Part shown: in pieces, positions 23,750-41,137 of the stretch | Numbering within the stretch: position 1 is the first letter of the stretch | How the letters are laid out: the number at the start of each line of letters is the position of its first letter | From: Bdellovibrionia bacterium | GTDB lineage: Bacteria > Bdellovibrionota > Bdellovibrionia > Bdellovibrionales > JAGQZY01 | Reading direction: 5' to 3' | DNA: 64,000 bases | NCBI GenBank assembly: GCA_030427805.1 | Contig: JAUICP010000001.1 | Coordinates: 1,054,001 to 1,118,000 of the forward strand | Notes under the pieces: model-generated | The model's input: the letters and a program-made list of their open reading frames with translations, nothing else | Databases searched by the model: none | What the model was told of the DNA's origin: nothing | Made by a program: the position numbers and the translations under genes

Positions 23750-23826
23750 TGGCACGCCTGTGAGGACTCGAACCTCAAACCCTCGCCTTAGAAGGGCGAT
23801 GCTCTATCCAGTTGAGCTACAGGCGC
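23750..23826 (-). tRNA. tRNA-Arg (anticodon TCT)
   Basis: 77 bases including encoded CCA, read on the minus strand. Acceptor GCGCCTG pairs with CAGGCGT (one G-T pair). The D arm is GCTC..GAGC, the anticodon arm TCGCC-CTTCTAA-GGCGA, the T arm TGAGG-TTCGAGT-CCTCA. The anticodon TCT reads AGA/AGG arginine codons. Confidence 0.96.
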
Positions 23827-34284: not shown

Positions 34285-35106
34285 ATGAAAAATCTATTTT
34301 TTATTTTGGTCATGCTCGGCCTTATGTACCCAATGTTTGCCGGTGCAGAGTCAGGCCTCTACACAAATGAAGACGTAAATCTTGATTTAAATTTGTCGGA
34401 CTTCGGACTGGATGGTGAGAGGCATCCGGTTTCGAATCTTTTTATAAATGTTCCTGAGGACCGACCGCGAACGGACCGTGTTGCTTTTAGAGATGATGAA
34501 CCCGTACGTGTGCCCATTACTGAAACCTGGTTTGCCGGTGGGTATATCTTTCTAAAATATGAAGGGGCCTGCTTTACTCCCAATTATTGGGCCGGTGGTT
34601 TTGAAGCTCCTCAAGCTGGCTGTCTTGATACCTACGCGGTTAAGATCCCTGATTTTTACTGGGCCCGTTGGATTGAAAAAGTGAGTTTTCGTCAAAGTTA
34701 CCTCGATCGCATCGAGGCGAACCAAGAAGACTTTGAAATACAAAGTTTTTCTAGTTTTTTGACTTATCTTGATGGCATCGATCGGCCAAAAGTGATTGAT
34801 GCTAATTCCAATGGAATATGTGTGGTGGGTTACTATACCAGCGACGCAAAGATTGCTGAAATCAAAGAGCGTTACCGGTACTCAAAAGTTGAAAAAGGTC
34901 AACTCAGATATTGGTGCAGTATCATGTACCCTAAACTCGATGTCCCCTTATTTTACTTTTCAAAACTGACAGACTGGGATCGTCGCGATGGTCTACGCTT
35001 TGATCATCTTATCAACGATGAAGAAACCCTCGAAGAGACCTCTCTTTTTTACGATATCTTTCCTGCCTTGGACCCTGAAAAGACCGGCGCCCGCGGGCAA
35101 AGGTAA
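34285..35106 (+). CDS. Secreted protein, unknown function
   Basis: 273 residues with GGAG upstream and a signal peptide, MKNLFFILVMLGLMYPMFAGA. The mature protein is rich in aromatic residues (FAGGYIFLKYEGACFTPNYWAGGFEAPQAGC) with four or five Cys. No domain recognised. It ends at 35106, immediately before the fragment of another gene on the opposite strand and a terminator. Neighbours are secreted proteins too. Confidence 0.72.
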   Translation: MKNLFFILVMLGLMYPMFAGAESGLYTNEDVNLDLNLSDFGLDGERHPVSNLFINVPEDRPRTDRVAFRDDEPVRVPITETWFAGGYIFLKYEGACFTPNYWAGGFEAPQAGCLDTYAVKIPDFYWARWIEKVSFRQSYLDRIEANQEDFEIQSFSSFLTYLDGIDRPKVIDANSNGICVVGYYTSDAKIAEIKERYRYSKVEKGQLRYWCSIMYPKLDVPLFYFSKLTDWDRRDGLRFDHLINDEETLEETSLFYDIFPALDPEKTGARGQR

Positions 35107-35112
35107 GCAGAT

Positions 35113-35157
35113 TTAGTAATCGTAGTTACTGATATGGTAGGTCCAATTAAAAACCGG
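35113..35157 (-). pseudogene. Relic 3' end of a paralogue of the 37562-37975 secreted protein gene
   Basis: Read on the minus strand this encodes VFNWTYHISNYDY and a stop, closely matching VFYTYHIGNYDY and a stop at the end of the gene at 37562. The DNA matches too (gatatggtaggt present in both). The rest of the gene is missing: the frame breaks upstream within a terminator hairpin. It is therefore a remnant of a deleted or partially copied paralogue. Confidence 0.6.
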
Positions 35158-35187
35158 AGTCAGAAGTACTCCGGTTTTATTTTTTTA
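35149..35187 (+). terminator. Rho-independent terminator after the 34285 gene
   Basis: AAACCGGAGT / ACTCCGGTTT with loop cagaagt, then TTTATTTTTTT. Overlaps the upstream edge of the relic gene end. Confidence 0.85.
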
Positions 35188-35244: not shown

Positions 35245-37317
35245 TCACTTCAGCCAATTGGGAAGTGGAAATCCATTGGACATTAAAAAGTTTCTGGCTC
35301 GTGTCGGCGAGTCGATAATTTTTTGTCGATCGCTCTTGGTTTGACCGCTAAGAACAGTGGTACTCGCACCAAAAATAATATCTTTTTCAGTCACTGTAGC
35401 CCCTCGACTTCGATAGAGCGGGGTCCAATAATTGAGACCGGCTTGTTCCGCATTTCGAGAAAAGTATCTCTGGTAAATTGCATTAACGGCTCTTTCGTCG
35501 GCACTGAGTTGTGGTGTTGGGCTCGGTGTCGGAGTTGGAGTGGGTGTAACTCTTACACAGCTTGTTCCAGATTGTTGGTACCCTGAATTACAACGGACAA
35601 GAGAGCAAGAGCCAAAACCGGATAATGTCGAATTACATCGAGCATAGATTGCACCATTTGAAATATTTCGACAAAAACGAATTGTATTAGGGGAACAAAC
35701 AGCTAACCAGTTGGGGAGCGAGAAGCCATTTCCGAGTAGAAAGCTTCTTGCCGAATTCGCTGTGTTCTGAATGATATAACTTCGGTCACTGAGTCCACTC
35801 GCGGTCATGCTACCGTTGGTAGAACTAGCGCCATAAATAATATCTTTTTCAACGACCGTGGCACTTCGAGACTGAAGTTGTTGCGCCCAGTAGTTCAGCC
35901 CGGCCATTTCTGGCATACGGTTGAAATACTTTTGATAGATCGCTTTTATGACGTTTTCACCCTGAGGAGTTACTGGCGCTTGCATCGCGACACATGAATT
36001 TCCTAATCTTCGATAGCCAGAGTTACACTCTACGATGTTACAAGCACCGTAGGCTGTTCCATCGCCATTACAGGTTTGAAAAAGTTTACCGTTGGCGATG
36101 CTACCGCACTCGTTCCGAGTCCCTGGAGAACAGAAAAGGAGCCAGCTTGGAATTGCAAAGCCATTTTCCGTAAGAAACTGTCTTGCTTCTTGGGATCTGT
36201 TATTAATAAGAAAGTTTCTATCACTTCCCTGGGAATTGACTAAAATATCTCTTTTAACGATGTTTTCGTTTTTAGTTTGGAGTTGTGTGGTCCAGTAGTT
36301 GAGACCGTTATCACCAGGCATACGATTAAAGAAATCCTGAAAAACTTGCCTTACAAAATCTCGATTGTCTTCAACGGATTGAGGCTGTCCATAAACCATG
36401 GATAGAATTTGATTATCCAGTGCTGATGGTACTCTGTTTAATGGAATAAGGTCGGTCATTCCACCATTTCTGCAAATATTGTCTGGATAGCTTGGATTGG
36501 GATACTGACAATTACTGGGTGCAACACGAACCCTTTGTTTTCTTGTGATTGTGTGCAGGCCTCTCATCCTTTGGCTTTGAAAGGAAGCATAGTGCATGAT
36601 GGAGTCGAAATCATATTGACCTGTCTTAACGGTGTCGACAGTGATTTTGGCAAAGTTTGAACGACTGCTTTGGTTCATATTGTTCCAGTGAATATCTACG
36701 AACTGGTCGCGATCAATTCTGTTCTGTTCGTGGCCAACCCCAAAAGCGTGCATAATTTCGTGTTTTATCGTTCTTTCAACAAAACATTCAGAGTCATTAT
36801 AGAGCCAAAGTTCTTGTTTGCCGCCGATTCGACCGTAATAACTTCCACCACATCGATAGCGGCTACTGAATTGAACTTCGACGTAATCGCTTTCGTTTTC
36901 ACGGCGTTTACAGCGAATGTTTGCGTTACGGGCCATTTCTTCACAAAAAGACAAAACCTGGTTTTGTTGGTTGCGGTTGAGCCCTCTAAATGTCAAGGGC
37001 ATGACTCCGCCTGGCCATGTATTAATATTGGATTCAAAAACCCCGGATTGTTTAACTTCTTCGATATGGGCTTCGTACTCTTCAGGGAAAAGGTTCTTTA
37101 GATCTTCTTCATCGATTTGACTGCGGTGAACGGCGAGGTCGCCCACTAATACATAGCCTTCTCTGAGTTCAAGATCCGATGCATCCACAGACTCGGCATG
37201 GTGATCGAGTTGAAAGAGATTAGGATCTGCAAAGAAATTATTTCCACATGCGGTTAATGCCAATAAAAAACAAGAAAGTAGAAGCGCTCTGAATAGAGCC
37301 GTCAAAGAAACCATCAT
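35245..37317 (-). CDS. Astacin-family zinc metalloprotease lipoprotein with DUF4214-like and Cys-rich modules
   Basis: 690 residues from the ATG just after GGGG; the frame extends 36 residues upstream but the lipobox LLALTACGNN fixes the start. The protease domain shows TIKHEIMHAFGVGHEQNRID (HExxHxxGxxH, His about 186/190/196) and the Met-turn SIMHYAS. Three DUF4214-like units (VFQDFFNRMPGDNGLNYW, IYQKYFNRMPEMAGLNYW, IYQRYFSRNAEQAGLNYW) alternate with two Cys-rich modules ending GYRRLGNSCV and GYQQSGTSCV. Probably surface-anchored, degrading or binding protein targets; a Pro-Thr linker precedes the last unit. Confidence 0.82.
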   Translation of the reverse strand: MMVSLTALFRALLLSCFLLALTACGNNFFADPNLFQLDHHAESVDASDLELREGYVLVGDLAVHRSQIDEEDLKNLFPEEYEAHIEEVKQSGVFESNINTWPGGVMPLTFRGLNRNQQNQVLSFCEEMARNANIRCKRRENESDYVEVQFSSRYRCGGSYYGRIGGKQELWLYNDSECFVERTIKHEIMHAFGVGHEQNRIDRDQFVDIHWNNMNQSSRSNFAKITVDTVKTGQYDFDSIMHYASFQSQRMRGLHTITRKQRVRVAPSNCQYPNPSYPDNICRNGGMTDLIPLNRVPSALDNQILSMVYGQPQSVEDNRDFVRQVFQDFFNRMPGDNGLNYWTTQLQTKNENIVKRDILVNSQGSDRNFLINNRSQEARQFLTENGFAIPSWLLFCSPGTRNECGSIANGKLFQTCNGDGTAYGACNIVECNSGYRRLGNSCVAMQAPVTPQGENVIKAIYQKYFNRMPEMAGLNYWAQQLQSRSATVVEKDIIYGASSTNGSMTASGLSDRSYIIQNTANSARSFLLGNGFSLPNWLAVCSPNTIRFCRNISNGAIYARCNSTLSGFGSCSLVRCNSGYQQSGTSCVRVTPTPTPTPSPTPQLSADERAVNAIYQRYFSRNAEQAGLNYWTPLYRSRGATVTEKDIIFGASTTVLSGQTKSDRQKIIDSPTRARNFLMSNGFPLPNWLK

Positions 37318-37561: not shown

Positions 37562-37975
37562 CTAATAGTCGTAGTTGCCGATATGGTAGGTGTAAAAGAC
37601 GCCATCAACTCTTCGAGCGAGGAAATAAAGTCGTCTTGTGAAGAGTTCTCCGTGCTTTAAAATATCAATCGAAAAGCTATAGGAGATGATTTCACCCTCT
37701 TTTTTTCCGACGTAGCTGACCGGGTGAAGTTCGTAGCTAAAGCCCACAGAAAAAAGGTCGTAGATGCGAGCAAATTCAAGAAGGGATTCGAGCTCCCACT
37801 GCCTCACGTCTTCAATACTTGCTGGTAAAGGCGAAGCCTCTGAATAGGTTGTGCCCTGGTAGATATAGGGTTCCCGTAACTCCATCCTATGGTGAAAGGT
37901 ATCAGCCATAGGGTCATTACTGGCATTGGCTAATGGGCTAAACACTAATAGTATTGAAAAAAGAAAAGTCCTCAT
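37562..37975 (-). CDS. Secreted protein of unknown function
   Basis: 137 residues from an ATG with AAGGAG upstream. A signal peptide RTFLFSILLVFSPLANA is followed by a mature part with RQWELESLLEFARIYDLF and a beta-rich end SFSIDILKHGELFTRRLYFLARR. It ends with DGVFYTYHIGNYDY. A short copy of this end exists at 35113-35157. Upstream it is preceded by a terminator-like hairpin from the lipoprotein gene. Function not known. Confidence 0.66.
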   Translation of the reverse strand: MRTFLFSILLVFSPLANASNDPMADTFHHRMELREPYIYQGTTYSEASPLPASIEDVRQWELESLLEFARIYDLFSVGFSYELHPVSYVGKKEGEIISYSFSIDILKHGELFTRRLYFLARRVDGVFYTYHIGNYDY

Positions 37976-37991
37976 CCTTGGTCTCCTTGAA

Positions 37992-38014
37992 AAGCCACCA
38001 TCCCGGTGGCTTTG
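37992..38014 (-). terminator. Terminator-like hairpin after the 38054 lipoprotein gene
   Basis: AAAGCCACC / GGTGGCTTT stem with loop atccc, between two minus-strand genes. The T run is short, so termination would be partial. Confidence 0.5.
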
Positions 38015-38053
38015 ATTCAATAGGATTGAATAATTGAGTGTGACGACACCAAC

Positions 38054-39847
38054 TTAAAGTTGGATGTCGCCATTGATAGCGAGGTCGACAGCTTTTTCAG
38101 GGTCGTCCTCAACGTCGACAAGAAACTGAGTTCTTGTCTTATTACCGAGAAGTGAAAGAGCACTAATTACTTCTCTGACGTCTTCTCTTGAACATTGACC
38201 ATCTTGGGCCACTTGACCAGTTTTTAGGTTCCAATTGATATCGGTCGCACAAAAACCTTTCATCGTAGCAAATCGTTTGATCATTAAGACCAAAGGAAGT
38301 TGCAGGTCGGTGAGGCTATTTCGCAAAATACTGCCTTGTCCATCGGGGCCAAGGATCTCATCCAATTCTTCTTGGGCAAACATGGTTCGACCGAGAAGTT
38401 GAGCGAGAGTCGATTTTGAAAGTGCTCCGTTCATGCTCTCAAGGTAGTCGGGAGTTTTTTGCGACATACGATCGAGAAGGTCCGAGAGATAAACGACAGT
38501 TCTAAAAAGTGATGTCACGTTTTTAATTGAGAGCTGAGTTTCATCTGTCGATACACTGGGGTTAATCAGAGCAAAGCCAGCTGCGCTCTCACCTTCGCCA
38601 AGACGTTGCCCTTTAGCGTTTGTGAAAACGATGTTTTGTGCTGCCAAGTTTTTAAAGCCAATAAGAAGTAAACCAAGCGCCAATGAATGGGCTTCAGCCG
38701 GAGCCAGTGCCGGTGACTCTGGATTCGTAGTATCACCAAAGAGGTAGTCATTATCGGCCACCCAAGAGTTCACTGGGCTTGTTGCCTCTAATATATAGGT
38801 CATGCTCTCGATGTAGCTGAGAAGCTCTTCGAGTTCCTTACCTTGCGTCTCTGGACGTGGATTTAAAACCAGAGGTTTTGCCGGTGAATAATTGGCAATT
38901 TCGTCAGGAGAGAGAATAACACTTCCGCCCTGGGGATCAGTGAAGCCACCAAAGACATCATAGGTGTCAAATGGGAGTTCTTCGCTATCGATTTTAGCAA
39001 GACGTCCGTTTGATTTTGGTAGAGTCGCCTCGTAACCCTTTAGAGCGAGGAGTTGACCAAAAAGTCTTTGCATTAAAATAAAGCCACAGAGTTTTTGTTC
39101 GGCGGGAACAAAAGTGTTCTCAGGTCCATAGACTCCGGCGAGAGCCGAGCGAAGAGATGTGGCCATTTCTTGGCTGCGCGTTGACCAAATGCTCGAAGTA
39201 AAAAGCGGCATTTCTTGGGTCATGTATTTATTAATAAAACTTGGATCGACCTTTGATAGATCAGTCGCCTTGTTCATTAAAGAGCCGTAAAGAGACTTAT
39301 CAAAGGCAGTACCTTCAGCAAAAAGGCCGGGCATGGCTGACTCAACTTCGTCATTGACCGCGCCGTACTTAAGCTTGCGGTAAATACCGTTGTTGGCACT
39401 TTTTGCCAGCTTAAGCGCGTTGTACTCGAGCCAACTCAATTGACCTGAGTTATAGCGGTCGGTCGCGAGTTGAAAAAACTCTTCATCGCCAGGAACTTCA
39501 ATGTTTTCAGTTAATACAAACTCAGTGAATGGGTTGCCGAGGTAAACCTGGGCTTCATTGGTTTGATAATTGAAGGTTTCGAAGATGGCGAAGTCATTTC
39601 TGATCATTGGATCATTAACACCCATCATGCTCAATTCTTCGATTCGGGTACAAGCATCTGTCGTCGTACCGACACCGAGTTGGGCAACGGGACTGTGAAC
39701 AGGCTTGAAGACATTATTGGTCCCCTGGCCTGGTGTTTTTGGTTCAACAAAAGTTCTCGTCTTAAACTCTTCTTTTTCAGGAGAGCAGGCAACGGCCAGT
39801 GAGGCGAGAATTAGAAGTAGTATTTTTTGTGTCGTTAGTTTTAACAT
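38054..39847 (-). CDS. Large lipoprotein, unknown function
   Basis: 597 residues from the ATG placed 8 bases after AGGAGA; an ATG two codons earlier lies within the ribosome site. The lipobox is LASLAVACSPEK. The mature part is mostly alpha-helical and acidic (LSWLEYNALKLAKSANNGIYRKLK, AAEAHSLALGLLLIGFKNLA, LDRMSQKTPDYLESM), with three or four Cys near the C-terminus. No known family. It is 15 bases from the beta-barrel gene upstream (39863), so the two may be translated together and act in the same envelope complex (inference). Confidence 0.72.
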   Translation of the reverse strand: MLKLTTQKILLLILASLAVACSPEKEEFKTRTFVEPKTPGQGTNNVFKPVHSPVAQLGVGTTTDACTRIEELSMMGVNDPMIRNDFAIFETFNYQTNEAQVYLGNPFTEFVLTENIEVPGDEEFFQLATDRYNSGQLSWLEYNALKLAKSANNGIYRKLKYGAVNDEVESAMPGLFAEGTAFDKSLYGSLMNKATDLSKVDPSFINKYMTQEMPLFTSSIWSTRSQEMATSLRSALAGVYGPENTFVPAEQKLCGFILMQRLFGQLLALKGYEATLPKSNGRLAKIDSEELPFDTYDVFGGFTDPQGGSVILSPDEIANYSPAKPLVLNPRPETQGKELEELLSYIESMTYILEATSPVNSWVADNDYLFGDTTNPESPALAPAEAHSLALGLLLIGFKNLAAQNIVFTNAKGQRLGEGESAAGFALINPSVSTDETQLSIKNVTSLFRTVVYLSDLLDRMSQKTPDYLESMNGALSKSTLAQLLGRTMFAQEELDEILGPDGQGSILRNSLTDLQLPLVLMIKRFATMKGFCATDINWNLKTGQVAQDGQCSREDVREVISALSLLGNKTRTQFLVDVEDDPEKAVDLAINGDIQL

Positions 39848-39862
39848 TCCCATTCTCCTTTC

Positions 39863-41137
39863 TTAGAAATAAACCACGAGATCGGCGCGTCCGTATGAAG
39901 ACATACTTACGTTTTGACCTGAGAGTTTTCGGTTGTACTGAAGACTAAACTCATAAGGAATAGAAGCTTTCTTGTTAACAAAGGCTCTGAGAGTTGAGTA
40001 TTTAAAGCCAATTTCTCCACCCCAGTATTGGTAGAAGCTATCAGCACCTAGGCCTTCATAGTAAAGATCTCCTGGACCCGAGTATGAAGCAGACCCTTCG
40101 GTTTCGTATTGAGTGGCCGCCCAAAACTGAACGGAACGATCGTACATATAAGTCGTGGCACCAAGTTCTCCCATAAACTGAAGTCCACGGGTACGAGTGA
40201 CATCTTGAACCTGTCCATCGGCATCGAGAATAGAAGGAATTGAATCACCAGGATTGAGGGGAACCGCTCTTCTTCGAGTGTCAGAGAAGTGGTACTCGAA
40301 TTTCTGTGCAGCAGAGAGCATAATACGATCCGTTGGATTATACTCTTCAAAAAAGTAAGCTCCAAACGAAAGACTTCCTTCGCCAACACCGCTATCAAAA
40401 AAGTTATCGAGTTCACCCATAGTACCGGTCGGTAGACGAAAACCCAATTGAGTTGTCGCCATGACTTTTTCGGACTTAAAGAAGTTATAGGCGGCACCGA
40501 CTTCGACATCGCCGAGTTCAGTTCCTTGAATACGTCCATTGGGTGACTGGTAGCCTTTACTTGTGAAAAGGGCCGACTCAAAAAATCGTGTGTTTAAAGT
40601 CGTCGCTGAAGCTTGTTGGAGGCCAGCTGTTAAGGCGGGAGAGAGTGTTCCCATGGTTGCCGCAATGGCAGCTGAGTTATTGACGCCATCAACACGCATG
40701 GAGGTGCGAATATCTCTTTGCACCATGGGAACTCGAATCCCTAAGCTGAGTTTGCTGGTTAGGCCGTACTCGAGAGCGGGAACGAATTGAGCGACTTGAG
40801 CATCAAAGTCGCTGTAAATATTAGCGGCCATTAATTCTTGGCCCAAACCCGGAGAAAGATTGTTCAAAGCATCTCTTAACTGGCCGAGTGCTGGTTCGCT
40901 TGCAGCTAAGGTGTCGACGGTTACGGACTGATTAAGGCCGCCCGCGATCGGAGCCAGTTGGCCAGAGCTATTGTAAGTATCGGTAATTGAACCCGTTCTT
41001 ACGGTAGCCAGTCGCGCTCTAAAGATTCCCTTAGGCAATACTCGAGCAGTCTCGATGGCCAAAAGAATCTGTGAATTAAAAAATAGGATGCTAAAGATGA
41101 GCGCCTTATTCCTAAGGCTCTTTAAGCTAGATTGCAT
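39863..41137 (-). CDS. Outer-membrane beta-barrel protein, putative
   Basis: 424 residues with GGGAGGA before the ATG and a signal peptide (KALIFSILFFNSQILLA). Alternating amphipathic strands follow: FVPALEYGLTSKLSLGIRVPM, VEVGAAYNFFKSEKVMATTQLGFRLPTGT, SLSFGAYFFEEY, YGRADLVVYF at the C-terminus with a terminal Phe, a barrel sorting signal. It resembles transporters of the phenol-degradation MetA type in general shape only. First gene of a pair with the lipoprotein at 38054. Confidence 0.68.
   Translation of the reverse strand: MQSSLKSLRNKALIFSILFFNSQILLAIETARVLPKGIFRARLATVRTGSITDTYNSSGQLAPIAGGLNQSVTVDTLAASEPALGQLRDALNNLSPGLGQELMAANIYSDFDAQVAQFVPALEYGLTSKLSLGIRVPMVQRDIRTSMRVDGVNNSAAIAATMGTLSPALTAGLQQASATTLNTRFFESALFTSKGYQSPNGRIQGTELGDVEVGAAYNFFKSEKVMATTQLGFRLPTGTMGELDNFFDSGVGEGSLSFGAYFFEEYNPTDRIMLSAAQKFEYHFSDTRRRAVPLNPGDSIPSILDADGQVQDVTRTRGLQFMGELGATTYMYDRSVQFWAATQYETEGSASYSGPGDLYYEGLGADSFYQYWGGEIGFKYSTLRAFVNKKASIPYEFSLQYNRKLSGQNVSMSSYGRADLVVYF

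Follow-up and report, generated by a model that had tools for sequence, protein, structure and literature searches.

A predicted lipid-tethered bacterial astacin with a candidate aspartate latch and a modular DUF4214 array

Introduction

What keeps a bacterial astacin latent, and what does it hold on to once it is active? The question is raised by a gene in a 64,000-nucleotide stretch of DNA (the window) from a Bdellovibrionia bacterium (assembly GCA_030427805.1, contig JAUICP010000001.1, positions 1,054,001 to 1,118,000). An initial annotation, made from the sequence of the window, had read a surface astacin protease at 35245-37317, with a lipobox, an astacin zinc site, a Met-turn and a modular C-terminal array, and had suggested that in a predatory bacterium the protein could hold or cut prey proteins. 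All four of these elements are found at the locus; the suggested role is weighed below.

In animals, the latency of astacins depends on a prosegment: an Asp of the crayfish zymogen blocks the catalytic zinc (PMC9629494, PMC9848320), and cleavage frees the cleft, after which the new N-terminus pairs with a family-specific Glu (PMC9629494). The aspartate motif is common to animal orthologues, whereas the bacterial enzyme myroilysin is without it and uses a Cys (PMC9629494). This cysteine switch has been taken as a sign that holozoan and bacterial latency diverge (PMC9629494; PMC9848320). Bacterial astacins themselves have been reviewed as sporadic xenologues of animal genes, in hosts mostly living with animals (PMC9848320). 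Our literature search, with most subscription papers outside its reach, found neither DUF4214 described as part of an astacin nor an aspartate switch described as general among the bacterial members, and nothing on astacins in Bdellovibrionota.

Organization of the gene

The gene is on the minus strand, with an ATG at 37317, a GGGGGG stretch 5' of it, and a stop codon at 35245-35247, and it encodes 690 aa. A plus-strand reading of 35245-37317 was ruled out, as it has stop codons throughout. From the N- to the C-terminus the protein consists of a signal peptide, a prosegment, an astacin (M12A) domain, and an array in the order DUF4214-Cys-DUF4214-Cys-Pro/Thr linker-DUF4214, which bears out the modular C-terminus that had been proposed. 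The features are as follows:

35245-37317, minus: whole ORF, predicted lipoprotein astacin with C-terminal array, 690 aa (ORF call and Pfam)
37246-37317, minus: signal peptide and lipobox LTAC, Cys24 being the predicted lipid-bearing residue (read from the sequence)
37033-37245, minus: prosegment, residues 25 to about 95 (cleavage point inferred from pro-astacin alignment)
37138-37140, minus: codon of Asp60 in V-G-D-L-A-V, candidate aspartate switch (column conservation and profile alignment with EGDI)
36382-37032, minus: astacin catalytic domain, residues 96-312 (Pfam and model alignment with 1ast)
36727-36762, minus: zinc site HEIMHAFGVGHE, residues 186-197, including the family-specific Glu197 (sequence and conserved columns)
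36589-36603, minus: SIMHY Met-turn, residues 239-243, with zinc-site Tyr243 (sequence and conserved columns)
36133-36381, minus: DUF4214 unit 1, residues 313-395 (Pfam and unit comparison)
35989-36132, minus: Cys module 1, six Cys, residues 396-443 (module comparison)
35698-35988, minus: DUF4214 unit 2, residues 444-540 (Pfam and unit comparison)
35554-35697, minus: Cys module 2, six Cys, residues 541-588 (module comparison)
35509-35553, minus: Pro/Thr-rich linker, residues 589-603 (sequence)
35248-35508, minus: DUF4214 unit 3, residues 604-690, the weakest unit by Pfam (Pfam and identity to unit 2)
35480-35767, minus: divergent tract (Cys module 2 and linker), 288 bp, 62-66% identity to a sister genome, with stretches of 86-91% on either side (pairwise comparison)
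35150-35178, reported on plus: terminator-like hairpin between the astacin gene and the convergent gene 34285-35106 (pattern match only)

Four terminator-like hairpins were found in the searched region against 2.7 expected. No promoter was found clearly upstream of the astacin gene, the searched stretch holding eight promoter-like sites against 4.3 expected. Four of the five neighbouring genes, including 34285-35106, 37562-38020 and 38054-39853, have no Pfam match, so that the gene context names no pathway. Elsewhere in the window, a tRNA gene at 23753-23826 (minus) is the sole Rfam match over its gathering score.

The lipobox, LLALTAC after a hydrophobic signal peptide, was read by eye; its L-T-A-C ends in Cys24. 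A strict script missed this gene, an Arg lying inside the stretch it scans, and likewise missed the orthologue. The script found lipoboxes in 22 of 113 bacterial astacins from several groups (5/12 in the tree group of the window protein), and L046 and L017 also have one by eye. As read from the lipobox alone, the lipoprotein may be located at the surface, or may face the periplasm. After the signal peptide, and with Cys24 excluded, the protein has 18 Cys, an even number that would fit disulphides in an exported protein.

The catalytic domain and its relatives

The family assignments are far beyond chance by their Pfam E-values: Astacin (PF01400) matches residues 101-262 (profile positions 2-162 of 189) at E 6.7e-31, with 107.9 bits against a cut-off of 22.5, and the domain search that had been proposed for this locus places both Astacin and DUF4214 over their Pfam cut-offs. 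The residues agree with this. The protein has Trp101 and reads HEIMHAFGVGHEQNRIDRD at residues 186-204; the HExxHxxGxxHE site of the initial annotation is HEIMHAFGVGHE at 186-197, its columns being conserved across 114 bacterial astacin rows; HEQNRIDRD shows, after the Glu, the xxRxDRD pattern by which astacins are recognized; and the Met-turn, also as annotated, is SIMHY at 239-243, of the SxMxY form. Structure prediction, likewise proposed, gave a catalytic domain of astacin fold (Z 24.9 to crayfish astacin 1ast, rmsd 1.7 over 187 residues). After the Met-turn there is an insertion carrying two Cys (270 and 282). Membership of the LegP family (NCBIfam NF045530) was ruled out, the score of 96.5 bits being far below the curated cut-off of 300. 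Judged by its sequence and fold model, the window protein is almost certainly an astacin-family protease.

The annotation had called astacins rare in bacteria. This is only partly right. It fits Bacteroidia, where 12 of 295 genomes (seed genome included) have a match over the cut-off, but not the order to which the organism belongs, where 53 of 126 genomes pass it. In GTDB genomes a single degenerate pattern found at least 585 stretches and at least 545 confirmed astacin loci. The cut-off is also passed in 28 of 59 relatives, astacins occur in 12 plasmid records, and the window's own genome (G000; 4.5 Mb, 11 contigs) has seven astacin matches, six of them over the cut-off. From these counts the family is patchy and enriched in the order of Bdellovibrio, and it is not confined to animal-associated hosts; the rows examined span many phyla, including Thermus, Anaerolineae and Planctomycetota.

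A quick tree of 111 rows, from which nine rows (the window's own locus with its near copies) were left out, as was one row lacking a recognized start Trp, places the window protein in an 11-row Bdellovibrionota group (SH-aLRT 98), among them four other G000 astacins and one from G001. Six animal rows are close together inside the bacterial variety and need two changes, since two long-branched Myxococcus rows fall among them. The tree is unrooted and comes from a short search, so that the direction of transfer is not decidable from it.

A candidate aspartate switch in the prosegment

The prosegment of the window protein reads YVLVGDLAV, with Asp60 inside, a motif first noticed in the paralogues. 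Without any alignment, 80 of 113 prosegments contain a [GE]D[IM] motif; 200 shuffles gave it in 6.9 on average and in 15 at most. In the 114-row bacterial astacin alignment the Asp60 column holds D in 105 rows, C in 3, A in 2, N in 2 and a gap in 2. This alignment was used for the counts because a 58-row alignment (A4), in which D60 is invariant, covers 56 of 77 listed loci and leaves out the Cys-bearing ones. All 16 rows that a first Met-turn filter had dropped also have Asp. Later searches yielded 20 ORFs, of which five without the Arg after the zinc site were set aside (one D, four gaps); the 15 with the full astacin signature have D in 12, C in one (L239), T in one (L249) and a gap in one (L240). 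Over the three row sets, Asp is thus present in 133 of 145. The best 80 GTDB loci are those closest to the window protein, so that their Asp share could be inflated; the Bdellovibrionota rows, with D in 51 of 51, were retrieved by the Pfam model and not by similarity to the window protein.

Alignment connects the motif to the animal one. The 58-row profile pairs its GDI with the EGDI of crayfish astacin in 6ht9 and of the zymogen 3lq0, although the Phe and Ile of the animal F-x-G-D-I are absent from the window protein (V-L-V-G-D-L). The structure model is of low confidence at residues 60-62, and the fold comparison spanned residues 96-314, with the prosegment outside it. A Cys, likewise a residue that blocks zinc, stands in the Asp60 column of L102, L107, L114 and L239, in motifs such as VEGCIVVP, VQGCIILG and VEGCIVIG; as L102 and L107 are in different parts of the tree, Asp and Cys have seemingly been exchanged at least twice. 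Of the nine rows without D among the 114, L134, L138, L141, L146 and L172 have a Cys nearby in the prosegment, and L151 has neither. These five are planctomycete-type sequences (one is unclassified) without a GD motif; a Cys that looks conserved lies a short way ahead of their mature domain and may be a cysteine switch.

On this evidence Asp60 is very probably a zinc-blocking latch of the animal pro-astacin type, which would keep the precursor inactive. The Asp counts in bacterial astacins disagree with the published divergence of latency (PMC9629494; PMC9848320) as a general rule. Myroilysin (5gwd), a bacterial member of the same catalytic family, is farther from the bacterial astacin profile (E 1.3e-18) than is crayfish astacin (E 2.6e-69), and its latch is a Cys, without a GD motif, where the window protein has Asp (PMC9629494).

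The C-terminal array

DUF4214 (PF13946) matches the whole protein at E 5.7e-19, with 68.4 bits against a cut-off of 23.2. The earlier wording, "DUF4214-like", was right as to relationship and understated, as the units are DUF4214 domains by the Pfam cut-off. Three stretches are found at a permissive limit of 10, two at 0.001, and two over the cut-off in a genome search; unit 3 is counted as DUF4214 because it is 57% identical to unit 2. The annotation had also seen three xNRMPxxxGLNYW units. Two are present, as FNRMPxxxGLNYW at 330 and 465, but the third reads SRNAEQAGLNYW at 620.

In G000 five genes have DUF4214: the astacin, a GH10 xylanase (E 2.9e-82; L040:324-3062, plus, on G000:C7) with two C-terminal units, a pair of small lipoprotein-like ORFs, each with two units and no other recognized domain, and one short ORF with a single unit. 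At L043:1231-2337 (minus), compared with L264, G000 has about 1.9 kb that the sister genome lacks; the extra DNA holds a metzincin-like ORF, with Reprolysin_5 over the cut-off, next to a DUF4214 lipoprotein-like gene. A second astacin with DUF4214 is L053 of G018, in which the Cys-rich modules are different. A Pfam scan of the window protein and 79 other bacterial astacins showed C-terminal additions such as fn3, FG-GAP, BACON, PKD and Ig, and in some proteins ricin-type lectin, cellulose-binding or dockerin domains; DUF4214 is absent among the 25 of 55 families listed, so that at most very few of the 80 astacins share it.

We know of no ligand of DUF4214. Searches of PDB sequences with DUF4214 profiles found phycobilisome linkers (best E 3.3e-5 and 0.001), and neither search listed RsaA. 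Phycobilisome linkers bind proteins, not glycans. L058, a canonical DUF4214 protein from a relative, resembles RsaA_NTD at E 0.002, below the Pfam cut-off, and the window protein has no Pfam match to RsaA_NTD (PF19198); with weak likeness in L058 only, the RsaA N-terminal domain of Caulobacter, which binds the LPS O-antigen (PMC6978808), is a lead and not a sign of membership. In the literature, DUF4214 of segmented filamentous bacteria has been described as probably serving to anchor proteins at the surface (PMC12780176), and the Caulobacter S-layer protein was in part the template for a model of one DUF4214 protein from Halomonas (PMC11970703). Like such S-layer and surface-anchored DUF4214 proteins the window protein has units over the cut-off, to which it adds an astacin. 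Its array has no confident structure model, and a fold search with a unit model gave 33 Foldseek matches, all of E 1.5 or worse, and in a fold comparison a best Z of 3.2; none of the matches is convincing.

The two Cys modules have six Cys each, spanning 396-442 and 541-587. Among 191 genomes of the phylum, 15 have the module: it is in tandem in L180 and L189, beside DUF4214 in L202 of G031, and, in another genome of the phylum, on an M4 thermolysin-like protease (L183, minus, 39-2591). The six-Cys modules are perhaps EGF-like: Pfam cEGF matches below its cut-off (E 0.0088, 16.3 bits against 26.6), and EGF-like chains match at Z 2.5-3.2, possibly by chance.

Comparison with a sister genome

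The sister genome G001, of the same genus, has an orthologue of identical architecture and 91% identity, but the two proteins do not differ evenly. Residues 1-395 are about 97% identical with a dS of 0.13; dS is 0.55 at 444-525, 2.87 in Cys module 2 (541-588), where amino-acid identity is 47.9%, and 0.80 in the last DUF4214 unit. A 10-kb comparison in steps of 150 bp gives an identity of 62-66% at 35767-35480 and of 73-86% at 35479-35030 (gene end and intergenic), the other steps lying at 86.7-100%. The reading frame is kept across the divergent tract. A second dip, to 89-93%, is seen at 40268-41017 of the window, in ORF 39863-41137, which has no Pfam match.

Point-by-point positive selection was rejected as the cause of the tract, since synonymous sites there are likewise close to saturation; the tract is better accounted for by imported or replaced DNA, or by an old allele. 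Searches of G000, G001 and G003 for a donor copy returned, apart from the gene itself at 67% across 146 bases, only a 46-base match at 81%. The comparison, of two genomes of which one is a MAG, shows one exchange event or one old allele, and gives no rate. A chimeric assembly may also be behind the tract, the sister genome being a MAG and its contig of low coverage.

Discussion

The features of the locus are best explained as a whole, we are slightly inclined to think, by a lipid-tethered, self-locked astacin precursor with a binding arm. An exported metalloendopeptidase would be tethered by lipid and made in an inactive form, with Asp60 ligating the catalytic zinc and maintaining latency. The prosegment would be removed through a cut near residues 91-100, made by another protease or by another copy of the enzyme. 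As the predicted lipid is on the prosegment, its removal should free the catalytic domain together with the array; such release upon activation is possible, if somewhat doubtful. The array, with its three DUF4214 helical units and two six-Cys modules, could then be a multivalent arm that holds the freed protease on a glycan-bearing surface, be it the envelope of the producing cell, a target cell or a matrix, and there the protease would cut neighbouring proteins. A binding function of the array is predicted with a little more confidence than doubt, glycans or the envelope being the best guess for what is bound, and the arm would evolve through module exchange.

The lipid anchor precedes the whole chain, and could instead mean that the lipoprotease stays on the predator's own envelope and is active with its prosegment, the GD motif being structural and the array serving to space or stack the protein. 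Lipobox astacins do occur in several groups, and the phycobilisome linker is one of the assembly folds to which DUF4214 bears a likeness. We consider this unlikely, as the alternation of Asp and Cys and the alignment with EGDI speak for a zinc latch, and as animal astacins need a free mature N-terminus for the family-specific Glu (PMC9629494), which is present here as Glu197. If the enzyme is instead taken to be secreted and to degrade matrix or biomass, the array would bind polysaccharide in the manner of carbohydrate-binding modules while the protease cuts matrix proteins. The two DUF4214 units of the G000 xylanase, and the lectin, cellulose-binding, dockerin, fn3 or PKD domains on some of the 80 astacins, agree with such a role; DUF4214 is also on two lipoproteins without another recognized domain, and we regard this reading as rather unlikely.

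The role in predation, in which the array would hold the prey for the protease to open its surface proteins, draws on the position of the organism in the order of Bdellovibrio and on its gene content. G000 has an HMG-CoA reductase (G000:C11:5243-6322) and no detected DXP reductoisomerase, so that its isoprenoid synthesis is, from these genes, of the mevalonate type, and it has the predator-marker family kynA. The latter is present in 53 of 59 relatives and hence cannot discriminate predators. In group g15, which we take to be Bdellovibrio, the frames in genomes that pass the astacin cut-off are short, at 306-354 aa, and one of 11 genomes has DUF4214; with DUF4214 in 13 of 59 relatives, the DUF4214 array is not a general predator trait. 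The units on the xylanase, moreover, would fit plant or matrix polymers equally, and we consider a prey-handling protease improbable. Against the preferred reading of a tethered precursor with a binding arm, the xylanase and the small lipoproteins of G000 are already lipid-anchored, so that DUF4214 is not needed there for holding on to the cell's own surface.

Comparison with known systems delimits what is particular to the window protein. It shares with crayfish astacin and animal pro-astacins (MEROPS M12A; 1ast, 3lq0) the catalytic fold and residues, the Met-turn, the Glu and the GD motif, and differs in the lipid anchor of its prosegment and in the two-Cys insertion (270, 282). Where it has DUF4214 and Cys modules, crayfish astacin has no C-terminal array, and other animal astacins have MAM, TRAF, CUB or EGF. 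An astacin domain followed by C-terminal modules is also the plan of BMP1/tolloids and meprins, in which EGF-like modules are described (PMC9848320), but the modules of the window protein are DUF4214 and unclassified six-Cys ones, and its anchor is N-terminal; the likeness is probably parallel and not one of shared descent. LegP (NF045530) likewise has an astacin domain, and the window protein is far below the 300-bit cut-off of that family.

More broadly, and with rather more doubt than confidence, we suggest that the animal aspartate switch may also be the common and probably old latency mechanism of bacterial astacins, in which Asp has been replaced by Cys in more than one lineage. In the lineage of the window protein the switch would be joined to an N-terminal lipid tether, so that activation itself would detach the zymogen from the membrane, and also to a C-terminal arm with modules exchanged between strains, which would leave the choice of target changeable and the enzyme fixed. 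With Asp in 133 of 145 rows from many phyla, the origin of the animal astacin family and the exchange of Asp and Cys latches become directly testable in bacterial enzymes that are easy to work with. The layout with the lipid on the prosegment suggests a simple release mechanism, and the C-terminal arm may be a naturally occurring example of a protease that exchanges modules.
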